DNA of 64,000 nt from Haloarcula rubra (lineage in GTDB: Archaea; Halobacteriota; Halobacteria; Halobacteriales; Haloarculaceae). The notes beneath the pieces were generated by a model. That model ran no database searches, had not been told where the DNA came from, and was given only the letters and a program-made list of their open reading frames with translations. The stretch is from the NCBI RefSeq assembly GCF_019599465.1, contig NZ_RKLR01000003.1:248001-312000 (forward strand), given 5' to 3'. The translations under genes and the position numbers were made by a program. How positions within the stretch are numbered: the stretch's first letter is position 1; every line of letters begins with the position of its first letter. Positions 42,039 through 48,141 of the stretch are shown one piece after another.

Positions 42039-42287
42039 ATGCTCTCGGAAACTCAGACCGTGCCAGCAGTCGAACAGACCGACCCGGACGGCGTCGACTT
42101 CGGATGGGTGATGCAGATTACGTTCGTGACGACCATCCTCGTCGGGTCGCCCCTCGTCGTCCTCGCGTCGTTCGGGACGACGCTGCCGACGTGGACGAGT
42201 CGGGCCCTCTTCGCTGTTCGCGTCGGTGCAGTCGTGTGGTTCCTGACCGCTGTCGGCGTCTATCTCTACGCCCGGTATCGGCGCTGA
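42039..42287 (+). CDS. Small two-helix membrane protein (DUF5822-like)
   Basis: An 82-residue protein with a polar N-terminus (TDPDGVDFGWVMQITF) and two hydrophobic segments, TTILVGSPLVVLASFG and VRVGAVVWFLTAVGVYLY. A conserved haloarchaeal membrane family without a known function. The last 22 bases overlap the convergent HAD gene. Confidence 0.72.
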   Translation: MLSETQTVPAVEQTDPDGVDFGWVMQITFVTTILVGSPLVVLASFGTTLPTWTSRALFAVRVGAVVWFLTAVGVYLYARYRR

Positions 42288-44675: not shown

Positions 44676-44760
<85 letters not shown>

Positions 44761-45014: not shown

Positions 45015-45117
45015 TGGAAGGGGCGGGATTCGAACCACGCGGAGCCCTGCATGGGAAACTGCCAGGCCGAATTCTGGCACGTTGGCTGGCAGCGCTCTAC
45101 CACTGAGCCACCCTTCC
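45015..45117 (-). tRNA. Atypical tRNA gene, 103 bases, isotype unresolved
   Basis: On the minus strand, GGAAGGG (from 45117) pairs with CCCTTCC before discriminator A at 45015. A perfect D-arm GCTC-AGTGGTA-GAGC follows the acceptor. The T-loop TTCGAAT is present, but its stem only pairs as GCG-GG/CCCGC if a T is bulged. Between the arms, CTGCC and GGCAG bracket 24 bases and are followed by TTTCCCATGCAGGGCTCC, longer than a normal loop plus variable region, so an intron or a long variable arm is likely. A TATA-like site (AAATAT, 45147-45152) lies 30 bases upstream, arguing that it is expressed. No anticodon with U33 can be fixed. Confidence 0.55.
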
Positions 45118-45308
45118 GGACGGGGAAACGTTGGTTCCCTACCCCCAAATATGTGACGGGAGTGGCACTCACTCGCCGGAAACGGACTCGGGCGTCCGAG
45201 GCCGCGGGCGCGCGAGTCCGACCGACGACGCCCTCTGGACCGTCTCGCTGTCACGTCCTTGAGCATGCCGGCCGTGCTTATTCAAGCGAGCGCCACGAAC
45301 CGTGTCGC

Positions 45309-45629
45309 GTGAGTTACACCAAAGTCGACTACACCGACACTGAACCGGTCGCCGACGCGATGCACTTCCTACGGGACCCGCTGGAGTGTGAGCAAGTGGG
45401 CGTCACCGTCGTCGACTGCGACCCCGGGTGGACGGGCAAGCCCCACAACCACGCCGACCAGGACCACGAAGAAGTGTACGTGCTCGTCGAGGGCGAGGCC
45501 ACCGTGACCGTCGACGGCGAAGACGTGTCGATGACGGCCGGCGACGCGCTCAGAATCGACCCCGATTCGGAACGGCAGATACAGAACGGTGAGCGTCAGA
45601 GCCAGTTCGTCCTCGTCGGAGCGCCGTAA
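45309..45629 (+). CDS. Small cupin domain protein (GTG start)
   Basis: A 106-residue single cupin. Motif 1 KPHNHADQDHEEVYVLVEGE supplies metal-binding His, His and Glu, and motif 2 follows ALRIDPDSERQ without its usual His. It is expected in the cytoplasm as a metal-bound barrel, enzymatic or sugar-binding. The start is GTG at 45309 because the frame upstream runs through the tRNA-like gene. No operon partner. Confidence 0.8.
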   Translation: MSYTKVDYTDTEPVADAMHFLRDPLECEQVGVTVVDCDPGWTGKPHNHADQDHEEVYVLVEGEATVTVDGEDVSMTAGDALRIDPDSERQIQNGERQSQFVLVGAP

Positions 45630-46314: not shown

Positions 46315-48141
46315 TCAGTAACTGCGTTCTTTCGGTTCGTACGTCTCCTCGTCGCCCTCTAGGATGACCGGCTTGTAGTACAGTTCCGGGGTGCCGTCGT
46401 TCCACGCGAGCATCGTGTGCTTGATCCACTCGTCGTCCTTGCGCTCCTGGTGCTCCGCGCGCCAGTGGGCGCCGCGGAACTCCTCGCGGGCCAGCGCACC
46501 GAGCGTGATGGCTTCGGCCACGTCGAGGATGTTGCGCGTCTCGATGGTGTGGATGAGGTCCGTGTTGTACGTGCGCGACGGGTCCGAGACGGCGACGTCC
46601 TCGTACGCCTCGCGTGCCCGTCGGAGGTCGCGGAGTGCCGTCTTCAGGCCCTCCTCCTCGCGGAAGACGTTGACGTTCTGGGTCATCGTCTCCTGCACGT
46701 CGGCACGCACTTCGGCGTGGTTGACGCCGTCCTCTTCCAGCAGCGTCTCGACGCGGTCGCGCTCTCGCTCCACTGCGTTCTCGATGACGCCGGTCGGTTC
46801 GATGGCCGCCCCGTCGGCGGCGACGTCCTCGCTCCCGGTGTCGACGGCCCCGGGTGCGACCGGTGGCTGGACGTCCCCGTCTTCGCTCTTGGCGGAGGGG
46901 CCCGTCTCTATCTCGGCGGTCTTCATGTCCTTGCCGGCGGCGTGGTAGCCGGCGCGGGCGCCGAAGACGAGCAGTTCGGGGAGCGCGTTCCCGCCGAGGC
47001 GGTTGGCGCCGTGCAGCGAGACACACGCGGTCTCGCCGGCGGCGTACAGCCCCTCGATACACGTCTCGCCGTTCTCGTCCGTCTCGACGCCGCCCATCGC
47101 GTAGTGCTGGCCGGGCTTGACCGGCATCGGCTCGTCGAGGCCGTCGACGCCCTCGAAGTCCTCCGCGAGGTGGAGGATGTTCTCCAGCCGGTCGAGGATG
47201 CGCTCCTCGCCGAGGTGGCGCATGTCGAGGTCGACGTACTCGTCCTCGATACCGCGGCCCTCGTTGACCTCCGTGAGTTCGGCCCGCGAGACGACGTCAC
47301 GCGAGGCGAGTTCGCCGTCGTTGTTCGCGTAGCCGTACTCGAACATGAACCGCTCCTCGTCGTCGTTGTAGAGGATGCCGCCCTCGCCGCGGACCCCCTC
47401 GGAGATGAGCACGCCCGTCGACGGGAGCGTCGTCGGGTGGAACTGGATCATCTCCATGTCCTCCATCGGGACCCCGGCCCGGTAGGCCATCGCACAGCCG
47501 TCGCCGGTGTTGGCGACGGCGTTGGTGGTGTGGTCGAAGGCCTGTCCGAGACCGCCGGTCGCGAGGACGACGCCGCCCGTGGCGCGGAACCCCTCTATCT
47601 TCCCGGACTTGATGTCGTAGGCGACACAGCCGTGACACTTCCGGTCTTCGGGGTCGTCGTGGTCGGTCACCGCGAGGTTGGTGACGTACCACTCGTCGTA
47701 CACCTCGATGCCGCGCTTGACCGCCTGCTCGTACATCGTGTGCAGGAGGTGGTGGCCAGTCTCGGCGCCAGCGTAGGTGGTCCGGGGGAACGACATCCCG
47801 CCGAACGGGCGCTGGGAGACGCGGCCGTCGTCCTCGCGGGAGAACGGCATCCCCCAGTGTTCCAGTTGGATGACCTCTTCGGGCGCCGTCTTGGCGAACG
47901 TGTCGATGGCCGGCGCGTCTCCGAGGTAGTCGGAGCCTTTCATCGTGTCGTAGGCGTGCAGGTCCCAGGAGTCGCCGTCCCGGAGCGAGGCGTTGATGCC
48001 TCCCTCTGCCGCGCCCGTGTGACTGCGGACAGGGTGGAGCTTCGTGACGAGGGCGACGTCTGCACCCTCTTCGTCCGCTGCGATAGCCGCTCGGAGGCCG
48101 GCGCCACCCGCGCCGACCACGATAACGTCGTGTTCGTACAT
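46315..48141 (-). CDS. sdhA: Succinate dehydrogenase flavoprotein subunit
   Basis: A 608-residue subunit that oxidises succinate to fumarate with covalently bound FAD. The dinucleotide motif VGAGGAGLRAAI is near residue 9, and the FAD-linking His41 is in RSHTGAAEGGIN. HPTTLPSTG and the catalytic region RMEG-like GVRGEGG are present, followed by the C-terminal Arg/His segment HYAMGGVETDENG. An insert near 490-505 (TGSEDVAADGAAIEP) is acidic. Last gene of sdhCDBA, 38 bases after sdhB. Confidence 0.95.
   Translation of the reverse strand: MYEHDVIVVGAGGAGLRAAIAADEEGADVALVTKLHPVRSHTGAAEGGINASLRDGDSWDLHAYDTMKGSDYLGDAPAIDTFAKTAPEEVIQLEHWGMPFSREDDGRVSQRPFGGMSFPRTTYAGAETGHHLLHTMYEQAVKRGIEVYDEWYVTNLAVTDHDDPEDRKCHGCVAYDIKSGKIEGFRATGGVVLATGGLGQAFDHTTNAVANTGDGCAMAYRAGVPMEDMEMIQFHPTTLPSTGVLISEGVRGEGGILYNDDEERFMFEYGYANNDGELASRDVVSRAELTEVNEGRGIEDEYVDLDMRHLGEERILDRLENILHLAEDFEGVDGLDEPMPVKPGQHYAMGGVETDENGETCIEGLYAAGETACVSLHGANRLGGNALPELLVFGARAGYHAAGKDMKTAEIETGPSAKSEDGDVQPPVAPGAVDTGSEDVAADGAAIEPTGVIENAVERERDRVETLLEEDGVNHAEVRADVQETMTQNVNVFREEEGLKTALRDLRRAREAYEDVAVSDPSRTYNTDLIHTIETRNILDVAEAITLGALAREEFRGAHWRAEHQERKDDEWIKHTMLAWNDGTPELYYKPVILEGDEETYEPKERSY

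Follow-up and report, generated by a model that had tools for sequence, protein, structure and literature searches.

The window, the whole 64,000-nt stretch of DNA that was analysed, belongs to a Haloarcula-type chromosome and contains a tRNA-like gene at 45015-45117 on the minus strand (45117→45015), which is single-copy in its own genome (Table 1). A preliminary description of this DNA had reported acceptor pairing, a D-arm, a T-loop, an upstream TATA element, a bulged T-stem and CTGCCAG/CTGGCAG repeats, without naming a strand, and every one of these features was found at exactly this position. Elsewhere in the window, ARAGORN placed a tRNA-Ala(CGC) at 42184-42260 that lacks Rfam support and is probably a false positive; an Rfam-supported tRNA-Ala(CGC) is encoded elsewhere in the genome.

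Table 1. Features of the tRNA-like gene and its neighbours, in window coordinates
Feature	Position	Strand	Basis or remark
Genuine tRNA-Leu(GAG), convergent neighbour	44676..44760	+	ARAGORN
Anticodon-less tRNA-like RNA gene, whole	45015..45117	-	103 nt; G1 = 45117, discriminator A = 45015
Acceptor stem 3′ strand, CCCUUCC	45016..45022	-	conservation, 77 distinct sequences
T-arm, GCG-U-GG UUCGAAU CC-CGC	45023..45040	-	folding and conservation
Bulged U of the T-stem	45037	-	one bulge here or at the adjoining step in 77/77 sequences
Variable-arm hairpin, CCC AUGCA GGG	45045..45055	-	folding and covariation
Central hairpin, CUGCC...GGCAG, replacing the anticodon arm; no 7-base anticodon loop	45059..45092	-	compensatory double changes
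D-arm, GCUC AGUGGUA GAGC	45094..45108	-	folding and conservation
Acceptor stem 5′ strand, GGAAGGG	45111..45117	-	invariant in 76/77 distinct sequences
TATA-like box, ATATTT on the RNA's strand (AAATAT on plus), -35 to -30	45147..45152	-	A+T peak, 86 upstream regions
Cupin-domain gene separating the RNA gene from sdhA in Haloarcula	45309..45629	+	opposite strand
sdhA (succinate dehydrogenase flavoprotein), conserved upstream neighbour	46315..48141	-	same strand as the RNA

Anatomy, promoter and gene neighbourhood

The acceptor stem forms all seven of its pairs (7/7), and its 5′ and 3′ strands stand in normal 5′-3′ order at the ends, which disposes of an earlier suggestion that the tRNA is permuted. 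The D-stem GCUC/GAGC encloses a loop containing GG, the T-loop reads UUCGAAU, and both are compatible with a tRNA elbow, so that together with the 7-bp acceptor stem the upper part resembles that of a decoding tRNA. Pairing of the T-stem is possible only as GCG-(U)-GG/CC-CGC, so the stem carries one bulged U and is not a regular 5-bp T-stem. At the centre, CUGCCAG pairs with CUGGCAG and leaves no 7-base loop with U33; where a decoding tRNA has a 5-bp stem, a 7-nt loop, U33 and a constant anticodon, this element and its relatives have closed hairpins of changing sequence. The Rfam tRNA model RF00005 covered the element end to end at 44.3 bits (gathering score, 29), ARAGORN in default mode called no tRNA at 45015-45117, and our own covariance model (R1, below) scored it at 118.6 bits. 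As for the type II tRNA that had also been proposed, the resemblance is confined to the short variable-arm hairpin.

Folded as a single sequence, the cloverleaf (-41.7 kcal/mol) lies 2.2 kcal/mol above the free-energy minimum (-43.9), and the folding energy is unremarkable relative to shuffled sequences (z -1.8), so the case is carried by comparative evidence. When folding was constrained to the acceptor, D- and T-stems, the central hairpin formed in every distinct Haloarculaceae sequence tried.

Across 86 distinct upstream regions, A+T content peaked between -35 and -26, reaching 0.91 at -30 over a background of 0.42. The sdhA gene lies upstream on the same strand at 37 of the 67 loci examined, across several families, and in several families the order sdhA, tRNA-like RNA, small winged-helix-like gene is kept on one strand throughout. 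In other lineages the RNA adjoins a Rad3-like helicase gene or a 5′-deoxyadenosine deaminase-like gene; the helicase gene is transcribed away from it in one family. Some relatives retain sdhA and the small gene without the RNA.

Further repeats were seen around these loci. At many Haloarcula and Halomicrobium loci (L003, L005, L010, L015, L021, L030, L031, L063), a G-rich run (GGGGGTGGGGGGTGGGGG-like) followed by an inverted repeat, GGCACC-N4-6-GGTGCC, is conserved 200-470 bp downstream of the gene; in several cases it precedes a TATA-like stretch, and it may be a regulatory site or a further RNA. In two Halorientalis-group genomes, a second tRNA-like copy (L075, L079) adjoins repeated TTTCACCGGAAACTCGGTGTGT boxes similar to those at which origins are recognised.

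Distribution and covariation across Halobacteria

When 146 genomes of the family were searched at the DNA level, 50 returned a match, nearly all genomes of the genus among them. Most matches were full length at 76-99% identity, the whole 103 bases being conserved to this degree in about 40 genomes; full-length homologues occurred in most genomes of the genus and in two more genera. A pattern scan of named records placed the element in Haloarcula (H. japonica, H. vallismortis and H. argentinensis among others), Halomicrobium, Halorientalis, Halomarina and Halorussus. Searching with R1, built on 23 sequences, at E<=1e-9 revealed members in 175 of 392 Halobacteriales genomes, representing 41 of 95 genera, and the RNA was missing from many genera; all 40 distant matches that we inspected singly, down to 59 bits, displayed the same anatomy. 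A broader model built on 60 sequences (R2) was used for a search of the phylum. Clear members (63.9 bits or more) were confined to Halobacteria, and the best matches outside reached 55.8 bits; these, several per genome in another family, were taken to be ordinary type II tRNAs. Because diverged Halomarina members score 50.3 bits, below this gap, the counts of members are minimum values.

Some genomes carry two copies of the gene. Viral contigs and plasmids yielded no match, and a mobile or viral origin was rejected. We also considered whether genomes without a strong match might hide a diverged copy beside sdhA: of 30 SdhA loci from such genomes, 29 had no downstream relative and one, in a Halomarina, had a weak member. 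On the evolutionary scale, the tRNA-like RNA is dispensable.

Among 23 Haloarculaceae sequences, the pairs of the acceptor, D- and T-stems were constant and the central hairpin covaried. An alignment of 60 class-wide sequences contained ten pairs with double changes, compensatory ones being seen at all five modelled basal pairs of the central hairpin, and 112 double-change cells were observed versus 30.8±4.5 in shuffled alignments and 6-18 with slid partners, this alignment having been fitted to the structure and being to that extent biased towards it. The sequence of the central hairpin differs between lineages, its pairing retained through compensatory changes. In other families, UUCG or another short loop caps an unbroken central stem, so that an anticodon has nowhere to sit. 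The loop UGCCAGA(A) is common only to many Haloarcula and Halorientalis sequences, and a general function therefore cannot reside in it.

The acceptor stem GGAAGGG/CCCUUCC recurred in 76 of 77 distinct sequences, an invariance that is in part circular, since the sequences that went into the model had that acceptor. Exactly one bulged base was present in the T-stem of all 77, as GCG-U-GG/CCCGC, GUG-U-GG/CCCAC or GUGG-C-G/CCCAC. Position N73 varied (A in 40, G in 36, C in one), which speaks against a fixed synthetase identity. A control set of tRNA-Ser(GGA) from 30 Halobacteriales genomes, five of whose sequences the script trimmed out of register by one base, showed two main acceptor forms and a regular T-stem with no bulge. 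By this comparison, the arms of the tRNA-like RNA are as conserved as those of a real tRNA, and the T-stem bulge is particular to this family. The sequences show that selection on the top half of the molecule (acceptor, D- and T-arms, short variable arm) is no less strict than in a real tRNA, and that a closed hairpin, unable to decode, stands in place of the anticodon arm. The preliminary description had read this stretch as a tRNA-like gene that is real and has a promoter but no clear anticodon, a reading that is supported.

Intron, decay and repeated 3′ ends

A missing anticodon could also mean a real tRNA whose unusual intron is spliced out to restore a normal anticodon arm, as the preliminary description had entertained. 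Introns do occur in haloarchaeal tRNAs (PMC2584109), and ARAGORN with introns allowed reads 45015-45117 as Arg(TCG) with a 13-nt intron. Yet Arg(TCG) is already present in the genome, the forced assignment shifts from relative to relative almost without exception (the 38 that receive a call yield 28 different assignments), and in some homologues an unbroken stem ends in a loop of four bases. A scan for bulge-helix-bulge motifs found none in the gene itself, and their occurrence in 5 of 77 homologues versus 4 of 77 shuffled sequences is no enrichment; we thus regard a spliced tRNA as very improbable. Besides the element, its own genome has tRNA genes for at least 43 anticodons, including one for tRNA-Trp that holds a 107-nt intron. 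Neither elongator tRNA-Met nor tRNA-Pro(CGG) could be located there, and the closed hairpins of the relatives rule out the element as either of them.

We likewise give almost no credence to a decayed tRNA, also raised previously, or to the remnant of an element that integrated at a tRNA gene. In several species the gene is trailed by copies of its 3′ end, as integration at tRNA genes can leave, but the same kind of 3′-end repeat trails intact tRNA genes, and class-wide conservation, compensatory changes and a conserved promoter and synteny all run against decay. The tandem copies were initially a candidate for a special property of the tRNA-like gene, which was rejected because real tRNAs have them too.

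These repeats form an observation in their own right. In this and other haloarchaea, there are genuine tRNA genes trailed by one or more copies of their 3′ end, comprising the T-arm and the acceptor strand, at a spacing of about 100-240 bp. Examples in the element's own genome (G000) include C33:251941/252070/252190 (L194-L196), C31:5875/5983 (L186, L187) and C22:516261/516369 (L178, L179), and copies also occur at tRNA-Ser loci of other genomes. They are possibly scars of repeated integration, or may represent a repeat class of their own. The units between the 3′-end copies downstream of the tRNA-like gene at L005, L006, L010, L030, L031 and L063 hold inverted GGGATTCGA...GTTCGAATCCC sequences, which could fold into long hairpins of T-arm sequence. 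Separately, L095 (G000:C31:2036-2093) resembles the 3′ half of a tRNA, with UCC where the anticodon would stand and without a normal D-arm, and is perhaps the integration scar of a tRNA-Gly.

Possible roles and known tRNA-like RNAs

We consider it probable that 45015-45117 is a stand-alone, non-coding and non-decoding tRNA-like RNA gene, one of a family across Halobacteria, whose product mimics the acceptor and elbow of tRNA. Such an RNA would be transcribed from its own promoter and trimmed at its ends by RNase P and tRNase Z, like tRNAs and Haloferax t-elements, and the mature form would work outside decoding as a mimic, presenting a tRNA-like acceptor stem and elbow to a protein that recognises these parts. 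A T-stem bulge would plausibly lower elongation-factor binding, and the fixed bulge may in this way keep the RNA out of translation. Candidate targets are the tRNA end-processing enzymes, the CCA-adding enzyme, an aminoacyl-tRNA synthetase or the ribosome; RNase P, RNase Z, synthetases and the ribosome are among the factors that read the elbow (PMC4810234).

A bolder version of this mimicry, less likely than not, casts the RNA as a dedicated regulator or an amino-acid carrier outside translation: an anticodon-less tRNA body that the T-stem bulge shuts out from the elongation factor and that is held under tRNA-grade selection, its widespread family having escaped annotation because tRNA finders reject it. 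CCACCA tagging follows a sequence rule, a GG start combined with a flawed T-arm. This RNA, which has both, could be a substrate for such tagging, as is known for animal menRNA (PMC9777231).

Two narrower roles were weighed against mimicry. The RNA might be a t-element serving as a mere processing signal, at which RNase P and tRNase Z cuts part the sdh mRNA from the downstream gene or RNA and leave a piece that is otherwise jobless. The Haloferax t-element does exactly that before 5S rRNA (PMC4326828), and the one-strand order of sdhA, RNA and winged-helix-like gene in several families would suit it. We nevertheless think it unlikely, since the RNA has its own TATA box, is separated from sdhA by the opposite-strand cupin gene in Haloarcula, stands beside a helicase gene transcribed away from it in one family, and is absent from some relatives in which sdhA and the small gene persist; moreover, its acceptor sequence is frozen, when a pure signal should need pairing alone. 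An amino-acid carrier charged by an anticodon-blind synthetase (for example SerRS or LeuRS, via the variable arm) for non-ribosomal chemistry would fit the tRNA-grade conservation of acceptor and elbow and the short type II-like variable arm. Archaeal LeuRS is thought to need A73 and SerRS G73, however, and N73 here is A or G by lineage; as no conserved neighbouring transferase was seen at the loci examined either, we judge this specific role improbable, more so than the processing signal.

On the favoured reading, that of an acceptor and elbow mimic, the family would be a structured RNA of Halobacteria under tRNA-level constraint with no decoding function. Because it lacks an anticodon, it can be used to ask which machines see only the acceptor and elbow of tRNA, and it poses the question of what purpose a conserved bulge in the T-stem serves. 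Both carriers and non-carriers of the gene are found among the species of one genus, which makes comparison and deletion tests feasible.

Non-decoding tRNA-like RNAs are already known as a kind. The t-element of Haloferax volcanii lies directly upstream of 5S rRNA, where it is described as a processing signal (Hoelzle et al. 2012, Biochimie 94:940; PMC4326828). In a literature search for a Haloarcula or Haloferax record of the present RNA, this paper alone turned up, and the conserved Haloferax sRNAs hts10, H225.2R and htsf_359 (PMC3956466) could not be equated with the RNA; the tRNA inventories of Haloferax contain no tRNA lacking an anticodon (PMC2584109, PMC2841640). Like t-elements as that report describes them, the element at 45015-45117 is a tRNA-shaped, non-decoding haloarchaeal RNA whose shape suits it as a substrate for RNase P and tRNase Z. 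Unlike the t-element of that description, it is a separate gene with its own promoter, not adjacent to 5S rRNA here and often found by sdhA, and its acceptor is frozen and its T-stem bulge fixed; in several families, though, a same-strand gene lies downstream of it.

Other parallels are more distant. YrlA, a bacterial Y RNA-like molecule bound by Ro60, shares the tRNA mimicry, but its Rfam model matches the element at chance level (14.7 bits; gathering score, 69), and TROVE proteins do not co-occur with the family. Our partner search found no protein partner: TROVE was present in 8 of 40 genomes, spread over members and non-members, and was absent from the element's own genome, and a Ro60 partnership was rejected. 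The pseudo-tRNA tRNA-Other of Bacillus cereus (PMC3399842), likened here by description alone, is likewise reported to be non-translational and to act in regulation; it differs as an isolated bacterial example, embedded in a longer RNA next to a genomic island, and is not class-wide. The mascRNA and menRNA of MALAT1 and NEAT1 (PMC9777231) are also tRNA-like and made by RNase P and RNase Z, but they are animal RNAs cut from long transcripts, and no homology is implied. Haloarchaeal type II tRNAs (Leu, Ser) have the acceptor, D-arm, T-loop and variable-arm hairpin in common with the element, which departs from them in its missing anticodon loop, its bulged T-stem and its unique acceptor sequence, the 5′ strand matching the best-scoring tRNAs of its own genome at no more than 5 of 7 positions. 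Set beside these systems, with t-elements taken as described in PMC4326828, the present family appears distinct in being a stand-alone gene that occurs class-wide, its acceptor frozen and its T-stem bulge fixed.
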